From: Amyelois transitella
Lineage: Eukaryota > Arthropoda > Insecta > Lepidoptera > Pyralidae
DNA: 64,000 nucleotides
Direction of reading: 5' to 3'
Assembly (NCBI RefSeq): GCF_032362555.1
Contig: NC_083516.1
Location: forward strand, 2,629,001 to 2,693,000
Made by a program: the position numbers and the translations under genes
Notes under the pieces: model-generated
What the model was told of the DNA's origin: nothing
What the model saw: only the letters and a program-made list of their open reading frames with translations
The model's database searches: none
Part shown: in pieces, positions 28,401 through 34,400 of the stretch
How the letters are laid out: each line of letters starts with the position of its first letter
Numbering within the stretch: the first letter of the stretch is position 1

Positions 28401-31400
28401 ACTAGAAAAAATAACTGAAATTTGTAATTTTTTTATATAAATCATCTTTTTTTATCTTATATCTCTATCTTTGATCATATAAGAATTTATGACGAGAGAG
28501 AGAGAGAGAGAGATAAATGTGAGACGTACCTTTGGAAAGTTAAAAATACTTGAAAATGTGGTATTCGTATTAAGACTTTCGTCATTGACTCTTCTCATGA
28601 TGTGTCCTTACCAACCCAACATATCGCTCCTTCAATACAAAAGCACCACAAGTCAAAATAAGCAAATTGTTCAGGAGAGGCATTTGAAAAAATAATTTGG
28701 ATAATTTTGTGTTTTTTTTATAATCTATGGGTAATTAAGTAATGTTTTTGGTATCAAAAGACGCGTAATTAAATAGACTATTTTTAAATAAAGCAATCTT
28801 AACCATACCTCAAATAGATCCTCGAAAAAATGCAGATAAGTTAGTTTTGTATATAGACTTCGACTTCAAGAACATTCAAATTTTATAAATGAAACCAACA
28901 TAATAAGGAAAATTTGAGTTTTATTATCAGTTTTCAAGTTAAATAAACATACCATGAGATCAATATTTAAGTCTTCTAATTAATATATTACCTTTTTAGT
29001 AGGTAAGAGGAATAAATTTAAGTTTTTAACTTAATACAAACAAAACAAACCTTTTAAGCTATAAAAACAAAAAACTCTTGCATAGAATTAACAAAACAAA
29101 TAATAAGAATTATTGTAATAGTAAATACACTATCCAGGTATTTAACTAGCCTCCTAAAACTTAACAACTATCAGTTACAACAATGTAGGTACTTGTAATT
29201 ATTCTCACTTTACGTTCACTGAAACCTCTTTGAACAACCGATTAAAGAAATAATAAGTAAAAAATAACTATACTTTAATAATAAAATGTTTTAAGCTATA
29301 CCTAGTCACGATCAAATCAGACTTTTTCAATGGAATAATACTAATTTGTATTGTTTTACTTATGAAGTAGACACCTCCAAAATTATTTCCCTGATCTACA
29401 TACTACACTAATCACAACCGTATAAGCACATAAACGTGGTATAAAAGTGTTCTTACAAAAATATTTTTTTTATAAAAGGTTGACTTACAACTACATGGAG
29501 CGTAATGCTCGTAAAGGTATAAAAAAAAACTTAAACTAAAACATCAAAAATCAGTTCACAACAGTAACTTATGCACGAATTTAGAGATTATTATAAAAAG
29601 ATTCATAAAATTTTGGCACGACATTTTTTTGGATTAGCTTTAGAATCCCTTGCTTTTTTGCTTCAGGAACAGTAAGCTTTTCAGTGTAAAGTTGGTTTAG
29701 AGTCAAATTATTATCAGGTACTGGGTTCGACTTCGTGCGGCGTTTTCTCAACGTAGATACCGATTTGAACTCTTCGTCTTCGTAGGACGTTTTAAAGAAA
29801 AATATGCCATTGCTTACTTTATCTGTCTTCAGAATCTTTATATCAGCCCATTTGAATTTATTGCCATTATCATCTATATTGTAGTTTCCTATACACAGAG
29901 ATTTGAGGTCAAAAAAATTCTCATGTGTCAGTTCTTCAACAGTATAAGGCTTTCCAGTTTTCTTCGCTGTTTTAATCAGAGTGATATACTGGTCTGGAAC
30001 GTAAATTGGAGATGATTTTAATGCTCTAGTAATATTACGTTGAATGACCGAATGAACACAGTCTCCTTCATTTTGTGTGTGGCCTTTTATAAGGAACTTA
30101 TGAGTAATACTCTTGATGTTTGGCAATTCTTGAGTCGCATATTGGTACATTGCAAGCATGTATTTGTTCTTTTGTTGCCCACAGCAATTATCGCTATAGA
30201 AAGTTACATCGCAAGGTTCCGTGGCATTATCATTCAGTTTTCTCAGATACATTAAAACACAGGAACCAATTTCATTAATACCTCGGGCGCCTTCTCCCTC
30301 ATGCCATACAAAGCAAGTTGTGTCCTTTGTTCCGAGCTCAGTTATTGTGAAATTAAGTAAATTTAATTTAGACGTGTAATAAAAACTAGATACATCACCC
30401 CGTGGACAAGGCATCACCGCTTGGAGATCGTACACAGCGACGACGAAGGTATTACTCACAAGCTCTTTATCTCTATCTTTTTCATTTCTAGCAAGAGTCT
30501 TTTGCTTCAAGTGCTCGTCGTATGTCTCTTGTAGTAACGATTTATCTTCAGCGTTTTGGTAAGCCATGCAATCTTCGCATTGGTCCTTCTTAGGCTGCCA
30601 AAAAGATATGTTAAAATCATGTGTAAATATGTGGTAGTATGCTTGATATGAAACGTATTGTGCACTCTCAGATTCACATTTCTCCAGATAATGTCGATAT
30701 AGCGCCGCGACTGTAAGCCCTCCCTCAATATACTCCCGAGTCGATCGCGCCCTACAGTAATGACTTTCTATGCGGGGTATTGAATTAATGTGTGCTTTGA
30801 CACCATCGGTCAGCTCTGCGTCTAGTTTCTTATGGTTGTCGTGTTTTCCTCTCTTATCTTTAAGTTGCACGCCAGTTTCGGACAGCTTCTTGACAACGGT
30901 TCTAATTACAGTATCTGAGATTGCAAGGGTATTCATGAAGAAAACTTTACATACCCGAGTTTTTATATTATTTCGAGTCAGATAAAATGCGTGATTACAA
31001 TTTTTGCGACTGGTACCTTCACGAACGTATCTATATTTTGGTTCTATCTTGGTCATGTGATTGTGAATAAACTGTCGTTGGATTTCCAGATCACCGCTAT
31101 CCCAGAACTTTTCAAAGATATGTTCTCTTTCTTCAAACGTAAACTCTGTAGAACATTTCAATTTACATTTATCGGAACATACAGAACCCACTTTTTTGGC
31201 ATCATAAACTTTTTTGGACTTGGACATAGAAGTATAGGACATACCTTTATTTTTCAATAGCTTGCTCTGGTTTCGTTTCCATAAAAGCGGTTCTGCTTTT
31301 CTTTTACCACACTTACGGCGCGATTCAACATCAACACTAGGAGACTGTTCGTCTACGCTAGATGGGTGCTCGTCAACGCTAGGTGGCTGGTCATCAACTC

Positions 31401-34400
31401 TAGGTAATGGTGAATTAATTTTGAATAACTCGTGGTTATCTACGGCTGATGATTGTGGAAAATCTTGAATGCCAGGTAACTGCGCTTGTGGTTGTTGCTC
31501 TTCTTCGGAATCTGACTGGGTTTTGCGTTTTTTAATAAATGGATCTTCATACGTAGGATCTTTGACACTATCATCGGATGAGAAATCTTTATGGCTATTT
31601 GTAGAACTGGAGCTACTTGAAGAACTAGAACTGCTCGAAGAGCTAGAAGATTCATCAGATGAAGAGTTACTGTCTGAGTCTGTTTCTGGGATTACTAAAG
31701 ATGGTTTATTGAATGTTCTGTGTTTTGGAGGCGTTTCTGGAATATCTTCGTTTTCTTCATCAGAGTTGAGAATATCTAAATCAAATTTACTATCTGGTAC
31801 GGATGATTTGCTATCTTCTATCTCATCAGCATCATATTCCTCAGGTGGTACCAAGTTCAAAATACGGTACGCTCTTGATGTCATGCTGAACAAAAAAAAA
31901 GGTAAGGTGAGTAGGTAGGTTGTTGAACCCTACTGCGGCTTGCGCGATACCTACATGGAACGAGTAGGTATAGCCCGCAACGAAAGTGGGATTTGTCACT
32001 TGAAGCTTATAGTGTACAATAAAAAACTTTCAGACAAAATAGCAGCATTAAAACTAAACATTGCTTTTTAATTAAAAATAACATCTATTTAGAGATTACT
32101 TTCAAATACTAAAATGCCATATTTCGAAATACGATACTTTAGCTTAAAGAATTTTATTTGCAAAACTCACTTAATTCAAAATATGGTGGTATTGTATACA
32201 AAAATAAGAGCAAATACCACATGTATTAATTCAAAACTAACCAATTTGCAAACATTGTACTATTGCATATAAAAATGATAAGATACTTACGTGTATGTGA
32301 TCTGCAAAAGGTAATTATTTTTGAATGTGGCACTTTTAAATATATGATTTCACGCGTCTTTTAGCAGTTGTTTGGAATGTGGTAGTTTTACACAAAAAAA
32401 GCGTGTGCTTGTGCCGAATGACTGCTGACAACTGACAATATGGTACTTTTTCGCGGAACTCAGTTACAAAAACGGTACAAAACAAAACTAACGTGTGTGC
32501 GTTTACGGGTGTTTATAGTCATAAAACAATGGCTGTTTTCGCGAAATATTAAAGTTTCATCGTTTAAGATGCAATTTAGGCAAAAACAACGTTTTTGAAA
32601 TTTTTTGACTTGTGGTGCTTTTGTATTGAAGGAGCGATATTACCATTCATCTTTCAATTAATTCGTGCTACTTTCATTCTTCCTCATTCATTATTTATTT
32701 CATTCATTACGTATAAATACGAGACTTGAATTTTATCATTTAAAGAATTGGGTTATCTAATGTGGAATTTATTCATATACTACTGATAATTTCAGAGATC
32801 TGACTGAACATTATTAACTTTGTTCTAAAAAAGGTACTGATAGACAAATCACTCAGATTAAACTAGTCGCAAAGTGATTGACATTTGTATGGCAAAAATC
32901 ATGCAATTCAAGAAAACAGATAAATCAGAAGAAGCCTGATTCTAACAAAGTCAAAAGAAGCTGTTGTTAAAAGGATTTTGAAAAAAAAAAATAACACTAT
33001 TTTTAAAGTCGACAGGGTCAGGGTGAGACAAGCCAGGTAAATATTGCTTGCCCACACAAAAAAACGACCCCGGGAAAATTAATTTATACTGATATCGTAA
33101 ACAAGGGTAGAGATCGTTATGGGAACAAAAAACTTTTTTTTTGGAGTAGGCGGGAGAGCGTTCCGCGTCCTTGGAGCCCAAAAAGTAAACAGCTGTTTTC
33201 CGCCATATTGCTTTCTTTCTTCCAGTTAACAAACAACAACGCTCGGTGACAGACGTAGTTTTGTTTAAATTTCGGACAAATTAATACTAATTAAATTTAA
33301 AAAAAAATGTGGCGGTTTATCTAAAGTAATTAGTTAAAATAAGTCTAATTATAAGTCTATCATTAGTTTAACTTGGTGCTGTTCAGTGAAGTGCATTCCA
33401 TGTAGATAAATAAACTGCATTACCCTATACAATTTATCTATACACGGCACTGTGTATTTTTATTGTCTTTGGAGAATTAAGTATATGTGTGCAATTGAAT
33501 TAACCACCTCTGATGAGGTTGAAAATTGCATTTACTAATGCAGTGCAGAGCAGTGTATTAAACTGATTTACAATATGATATGCAATAAACATTTTGAATT
33601 AACCTGGTGGGCTGGTCTTAGTTCTCGAGTCCCGAGATGCGAATGAAATTTAATTTTAAACAATATAGTTGTTAAGACAGGCCATCTTGGCTAATCTAAA
33701 CTCATGCCTCTGACAATTGAGCTAAACTTCCTTTTTAGTAAAAAGTTTAAATGTTTCACTAATTTATATTGTCGTAGGTACGACGTCTTCATACATTAAC
33801 TTTTTTTTTATCATACCTATTTAATTTATATTCTCCACAAAACAAAATCATATTATTTTTTATTATCAAATAATTGAATGCAGTTTACGTTTGACGTTGA
33901 CATAAATTTATTATTATACGGTACCTATTTATACGAATCAATGTTTTCAATAAAATACAAATTAAAACGCTAGTCTAAAATAAGAATTGTAACCGCAAAA
34001 CGCATTGACCTACCATATTAAATTAAATTCCATCATTAAGCCGTACAGTTGAACGTGGTCTTTCAGTCTTTTAACACTGTTGGCTCTGCCTATCCGCAAG
34101 GGAAACAGACGTGATATCATGTACGAGAGATCATTATCAGAAAAAAATATTAGCCCACTCAGATAGACGCCCACTGGGACGGGGGTGGGTAAATGTGGGG
34201 CTGATCCCTTGTATGTGGGGTCAATTTAATGTTAGGGTCCCCGCAACGAAGATGTAAGCTGCACCAAAAACTGTATCAGTAATCAATAGTATGCATGCAT
34301 TTTATTGATTTCTTTCGATATAGATAAGCTCTCTTTGCGAAAAGCCGGTCGCGTCATTTGCTTTGAAGTCGTAACGGCTTTGGGTTCGGTTACCAGTCTG

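Follow-up and report, generated by a model that had tools for sequence, protein, structure and literature searches.

Does the long open reading frame (ORF) for a DUF7869-like protein in a 64,000-nucleotide stretch of the Amyelois transitella genome (contig NC_083516.1, positions 2,629,001 to 2,693,000; hereafter the window) belong to a mobile element, and if so, to which kind? A reading of the sequence alone had proposed an intact DNA transposon of about 4 kb encoding a DUF7869-like transposase. At window positions 28625-32636 we find a 4012-bp unit with the ends CGCTCC...GGAGCG, flanked by ATAT on both sides, and ten copies with exact ends and 4-bp duplications, together with empty sites for three insertions, bear the proposal out. 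The unit is almost certainly a cut-and-paste transposon. It is very likely a complete one, with the 767-residue DUF7869 protein as its transposase, and its most likely place is in the Sola superfamily, group Sola2.

Ends, target site and copies of the element

The inverted arms of the unit (28621-28658 and 32603-32640) are 38 nt long and 100% complementary. They had been described as a perfect 38-bp pair of terminal inverted repeats (TIRs). The perfect pairing holds and the length does not: because ATAT is palindromic, it was counted into the inverted repeat, and the TIR proper is a perfect 34 bp, the outer 4 of the 38 nt being the target duplication ATAT, present at both edges of the element as claimed (Table 1). 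A TIR running on into ATAT was rejected, as copies flanked by ACAT rule it out. Within the window, the first 25 bases of the TIR occur only at the two ends (up to 3 mismatches), with a shuffle expectation of 0.00.

We searched the 327-Mb assembly (33 contigs) with the same 25 bases and mismatch limit, a search blind to ends diverged beyond 3 mismatches and to masked stretches. This yielded 20 matches, 10 per strand, forming ten facing pairs with none unpaired, and 0 matches in the reversed-sequence control. When the whole unit was the query, ten copies came up, along with three 66% matches to another family. The ten copies are spread over eight contigs, and all of them end exactly at CGCTCC/GGAGCG, as predicted; many copies had been expected, and ten were found.

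Each copy is bounded by an exact 4-bp direct repeat, ATAT in eight and ACAT in two, and flank repeats longer than 4 bp (lengths up to 11 were tried) are exact in none. Because the non-palindromic direct repeat ACAT...ACAT cannot be TIR sequence, the target-site duplication (TSD) is 4 bp. With the same ends and exact 4-bp repeats in 10/10 copies, the ends and the target duplication of the element are defined, as the sequence-only reading had suggested; of the splicing also named there, nothing is visible in the one-exon ORF.

That reading also anticipated empty sites with one target 4-mer. We found them for the three insertions tested, the window's own included, as paralogous repeats and not as alleles. 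For one insertion (L039, C32:290574), 40/40 among the matches listed (of 1174 candidates) span the junction, one listed match being 100% identical over all 300 bases, and the three loci read all have a single ACAT. For another (L045, C32:8096808), the junction is spanned by 14 of the 16 matches, the remaining two being its own flanks; three of the 14 are 88-100% identical over 300 bases (best 100%) and eleven only 67-68%, with a single ATAT in 3/3 loci read. At the window copy, 38 of the 40 among the matches listed (of 91 candidates) span the junction at 79-89% identity and the other two are its own flanks; we read four of those 38, finding a single 4-mer, there TTAT, in each.

Three of the ten copies are full-length (the window copy, L039 and L040). 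The single unbroken 767-codon ORF that had been reported for the window is also uninterrupted in L039, and the remaining eight copies are frameshifted or deleted, L040 by a frameshift near residue 115 and L041 by a deletion distinct from the 1144-bp one shared by six copies (Table 1). These six probably moved in trans. Identity to the window copy is 98.6-99.3% for eight of the nine other copies and 96.1% for L041, which suggests recent activity of the element. Identical TIRs had been taken as a sign of recent insertion, but TIR identity within one copy gives no date; we rejected it as a clock, and recency rests instead on identity between copies. The copy on contig C19 (L046) carries a 5.6-kb insertion with a 1401-residue ORF (L046 2692-6894, minus strand), in which a peptidase domain of Pao retrotransposons is recognised and reverse transcriptase is matched slightly under cut-off. 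The insertion is probably a nested BEL/Pao element.

The DUF7869 protein and its candidate catalytic residues

The ORF product scores 38.9 bits against Pfam DUF7869 (PF25273), above the gathering cut-off of 26, in agreement with its earlier designation as a DUF7869 protein. To this Pfam family without assigned function we here tie a candidate triad, defined ends and a target site. The triad comparison included twelve DUF7869 proteins, seven from the A. transitella genome and five bacterial. The motifs DNC/DGC-x-GQ and GH[TS]....D are found in all twelve, with 41 or 42 residues between their aspartates, and a first Asp lies 78-82 residues upstream of the second in eleven, the twelfth (L063) being without that part. 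We had searched for the bacterial loci with the DNC motif, which they therefore all contain by design; neither the first nor the third Asp formed part of the search. The proteins compared thus have the common pattern D-(78-82)-D-(41/42)-D, represented in the window protein by Asp486, Asp565 and Asp608.

The sequence-only reading had pointed to Asp/Asp/Glu-bearing motifs. Its Glu is not retained, the third conserved acid being Asp608 of GHTQNEGD in 12/12 proteins. We rejected Glu606, from the motif given in that reading, as a catalytic acid since it is absent from ten of the twelve proteins, and likewise Glu529, which by eye is missing in the Thiomargarita protein L059.

By the triad and the modest fold match of a bacterial relative, the DUF7869 domain looks like an RNase H-fold transposase with three catalytic aspartates (DDD). 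The predicted model of that relative (L060) has a mean per-residue confidence (pLDDT) of 58.6, with block means of 60-86 over residues 311-400, and as we read the model its strands and helices appear in the order of the RNase H fold. A fold search with it gave 574 matches at E <= 10, of which the best 50 were listed. The sole match at E <= 0.001 is the Mos1 transposase, and five of the top six rows are Mos1, an RNase H-fold DDD transposase of the IS630/Tc1/mariner group. Other listed matches include the RNase H-like Argonautes, terminase nucleases, Metnase and Hermes; MutS-beta and acetyl-CoA carboxylase are also among them.

The ends, target duplications, empty sites, copies and triad can be explained by DDD cut-and-paste movement with a 4-bp stagger at A..T sites. 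The transposase would bind to the TIRs of 34 bp, and perhaps to the subterminal repeats on the right as well, and the RNase H-fold domain, with Asp486, Asp565 and Asp608, would cut the ends of the element. At a new A..T site the element would then be joined to both strands at positions staggered by 4 bp, so that gap filling would produce the 4-bp duplication. We infer this chemistry and what the residues and repeats do in it, as well as any present activity of the element and its Sola2 membership.

Table 1. Features of the transposon in window coordinates, with strand and basis of each call.
Feature	Position	Strand	Basis
Left target-site duplication, ATAT	28621..28624	.	Exact 4-bp flank repeat in 10/10 copies; single 4-mer in 4/4 paralogous empty sites read
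Left TIR, 34 bp, CGCTCCTTCAATACAAAAGCACCACAAGTCAAAA	28625..28658	+	Arm alignment; genome search with first 25 bases
767-codon ORF, one exon, DUF7869 protein, proposed transposase	29581..31884	-	No interruption, here or in copy L039
Asp608, proposed third catalytic acid (GHTQNEGD)	30061..30063	-	12/12 proteins, 41 or 42 residues past Asp565; position by hand, codon checked
Segment missing from 6/10 copies, one shared 1144-bp deletion removing Asp486 and Asp565	30188..31331	.	Identical junction in 5 mapped copies; sixth (L046) from alignment
Asp565, proposed second catalytic acid (SDNCCGQ)	30190..30192	-	12/12 proteins, the five bacterial by construction; position by hand, codon checked
Asp486, proposed first catalytic acid (VYDLQ)	30427..30429	-	11/12 proteins; position by hand, codon checked in sequence
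Possible subterminal repeat of TIR core, TGTGGCACTTTT	32326..32337	+	2-mismatch count; weaker at 3 mismatches
Possible subterminal repeat of TIR core, TGTGGTAGTTTT	32378..32389	+	2-mismatch count; weaker at 3 mismatches
Possible subterminal repeat of TIR core, TATGGTACTTTT	32439..32450	+	2-mismatch count; weaker at 3 mismatches
Right TIR, 34 bp	32603..32636	-	Arm alignment; genome TIR search
Right target-site duplication, ATAT	32637..32640	.	Flank comparison; empty sites

Relatives, classification and competing explanations

DUF7869 has at least 120 matches in the A. transitella genome, and we read four further moth loci for ends (L049, L050, L051 and L052). Of the other families found in the genome, L049 is the nearest: its protein is 45.7% identical to that of the window element over 613 residues, and its ends are identical at 25/38 positions. 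In L051 and L052 there are TIRs, with ATAT at either edge. A pattern scan of 84,980 bacterial and archaeal genomes returned 57 stretches, five of them encoding DUF7869 relatives: two Thiomargarita nelsonii records, two metagenome-assembled genomes labelled Deltaproteobacteria and one labelled Verrucomicrobia. The DUF7869 cut-off is passed by 5/5 of the genomes carrying these relatives. The bacterial elements are about 2 kb long, with TIRs of 36 and 37 bp in L059 and L060 (outer base ambiguous), and the frames neighbouring L060 and L063 are bacterial-looking by eye (DnaJ-like, CheA-like). DUF7869 elements with a 4-bp repeat other than the window family have the TSDs ATTT (L049), ATAT (L051 and L052), ATTT (L059) and AAAT (L060); their edges are ambiguous, by one base (an outer T..A pair) in L049, L059 and L060 and by the palindromic ATAT in L051 and L052, and were set to yield a 4-bp duplication.

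The family is rare in bacteria: in two bacterial phyla it occurs in 1/395 and 1/398 genomes, each time the already known carrier, and among control genomes in 0/14. Viral contigs scanned with the protein, its core and profiles A1 and A4 contained no relative, and plasmids and phages no match to L060. In the Thiomargarita element L059 (1752-3583) the protein is split into two overlapping frames of 303 and 308 residues, reflecting either a frameshifted copy or programmed frameshifting. Three loci of another DUF7869 family of the moth (L002, L003 and L006), each on its own contig, agree at 99.9% of positions across 3.5 kb, so this family looks younger still than the window family. Contig C32 (12.4 Mb) holds 27 of 120 DUF7869 matches by hand count against 4.5 expected by length (P 7e-14, with matches that are not independent and counts that are lower bounds), and could be a repeat-rich W chromosome.

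Sola elements, in the available part of their description (PMC10741241), have a DDD transposase, a 4-bp TSD and TIRs of 11-1124 bp, are mostly 2-9 kb long and occur in bacteria and metazoans; for Sola2, the available part of PMC3627910 gives a 4-bp AT-rich TSD, AWWT, with ATAT, AAAT and ATTT as examples. The element resembles Sola as so described in its 4-bp target duplication (10/10 copies), in its TIR of 34 bp and length of 4012 bp, both inside the printed ranges, in the apparent DDD pattern of its protein and relatives, and in having relatives in bacteria (five records) and animals. It resembles Sola2 in its AT-rich TSD, ATAT in eight of ten copies, with ATTT and AAAT in relatives. By these printed features, and not by homology to Sola2 proteins, membership of Sola or Sola2 is likely. 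The element had been presented as defining a poorly described group. That group is not wholly undescribed, its features being those printed for Sola and Sola2; the link between DUF7869 and a transposase may be unprinted. In the literature searched, which left aside Repbase and subscription journals, no paper named DUF7869, alone or with transposase, and none paired GQNKN with transpos. What is new may be DUF7869 as a Sola-type catalytic domain.

Other known systems fit less well. Mos1 is the best fold match of the L060 model, but the element duplicates 4 bp, as the ACAT repeats show, and mariner duplicates TA (PMC5199201, in its available part). The ISAzo13-type domain DDE_Tnp_ISAZ013 (PF07592) matches L060 weakly over the second and third Asp (E 0.018; 14.5 bits, below the cut-off of 26.9), and the duplications of ISAzo13 and Zator are given as 3 bp in the accessible text of PMC10045372, against 4 bp here. 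From piggyBac the element differs in that TTAA flanks 0/10 copies, and its protein is without a piggyBac Pfam match. Zisupton/KDZ elements duplicate 8 bp, whereas the longest exact flank repeat here is 4 bp in all ten copies. Chapaev (CMC) elements agree in duplicating 4 bp but have CAC termini where this element has CGCTCC; they are set apart by ends, not by transposase.

Several observations weigh against the assignment of the element to Sola2 with a DUF7869 transposase. Pfam, NCBIfam and PDB sequence searches of the window protein named no transposase family: NCBIfam had no match above cut-off, the PDB search gave nothing meaningful and did not list Mos1, and no Pfam match to a named transposase family appeared, which counts against the sequence-only reading. 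The predicted model of the protein core is poor (pLDDT 41.3), and in the L060 model the third Asp lies in a stretch with pLDDT below 50. The fold match to Mos1 is support and not proof, because TM-scores are at most 0.41 among the best 50 of 574 matches and the root-mean-square deviation to Mos1 is about 22. ACAT in two of ten copies departs from the AWWT given for Sola2 in the available text, and Sola2 is likened by its printed features only, not by transposase sequence. As for relatives, no convincing TIR was seen at L050 and none at L061, where the frame runs off the contig, or at L063, where it is cut short; L062 has 39-bp TIRs with the mismatched flanks ATAT/ATGT, and its contig ends in a reversed repeat of its own start, suggesting misassembly.

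Could the ORF instead be a host gene, a domesticated DUF7869 protein lying by chance between inverted repeats? A long open frame is by itself no proof of a transposon, but eight contigs hold ten occurrences of the exact-ended unit, all with target duplications and 8/10 with a frameshift or deletion, and each of the three insertions tested has empty sites. These findings already contradict the explanation, and we give it next to no credence. A non-autonomous or dead element that owed its movement to another transposase, and carried the DUF7869 ORF along as a passenger, would fit with the codon changes between the two intact copies (8 silent, 12 amino-acid changing), among which selection on the ORF is not evident. 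Against it, other units with TIRs and 4-bp TSDs, in the moth genome and in bacteria, also enclose DUF7869 ORFs with this triad, their terminal sequences being mostly different, and the second-longest ORF inside the element has only 149 residues and is antisense to the 767-codon ORF; we consider a passenger very unlikely.

The question of superfamily carries somewhat more weight. The element might be a cut-and-paste transposon outside Sola2, in a separate superfamily that has a 4-bp AT-rich target and a DDD triad in common with it. Besides ACAT in two copies and the comparison by features instead of proteins, this is favoured by the distance to proteins from other groups of the moth genome, which are only 19-26% identical to the window protein over 326-488 aligned residues, and by the scanned DUF7869 proteins being without an above-cut-off Pfam link to a named transposase. 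The tested Sola and Sola2 features were nevertheless all found, bacterial and animal range included, and we regard a distinct superfamily as unlikely. Equally doubtful is a broader proposal, in which DUF7869 transposons would form a superfamily of their own across bacteria and animals, outside every named Sola group, with a 4-bp A..T target and the pattern D-(78-82)-D-(41/42)-D, and in which one moth branch, much nearer to the bacterial proteins than to other branches of the moth genome, would point to bacteria-animal transfer. Moth L050 matches bacterial L060 at 33.5% identity (E 5e-97, 303 bits) and the window protein at 20.9% (59 bits), and L002 and L052 are, like L050, nearer to L060 than to the window protein, a nearness measured by pairwise scores and not by a tree. 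We retain a Sola2-like element moved by its DUF7869 protein as the most likely explanation.

Possible subterminal repeats, window surroundings and significance

The right side of the element contains imperfect copies of the TIR core TGTGGTGCTTTT. The sequence-only reading had noted repeated TGTGG..CTTTT motifs near the right end; the motifs are there, and their enrichment depends on the mismatch limit. At up to 3 mismatches, the right 362 bases contain three (a number reached by 11/200 shuffles), the left side two (6/200) and the ORF three (21/30), which is not striking. At up to 2 mismatches, a limit chosen after the weak 3-mismatch result, three are found in the 718 bases of 31885-32602 (starts 32326, 32378 and 32439), none on the left side and none in the ORF, and 0/300 shuffles reach three. 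We regard the right-hand repeats as a lead.

Elsewhere in the window, a 459-residue open frame with a reverse transcriptase domain (15646-17025, plus strand) is a probable remnant of a non-LTR (long terminal repeat) retrotransposon. Also on the plus strand are an open frame matching the autophagy protein ATG101 (38196-38912), a 657-residue frame without a Pfam match that by eye resembles a divergent insect ionotropic receptor (18106-20079) and an Rfam tRNA match (10014-10085; 35 bits, gathering score 29).

If DUF7869 proteins are transposases with the triad named here, a Pfam domain without a function gains a likely one. Such proteins, which the sequence-only reading described as common in arthropods and of which the A. 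transitella genome alone has at least 120 matches, would then call for masking as mobile DNA instead of annotation as host genes. Sola-type transposition could be tested with the window copy, for which exact ends, a target site and empty sites are defined and naturally deleted derivatives exist; at about 2 kb, the bacterial relatives may be easier to work with.

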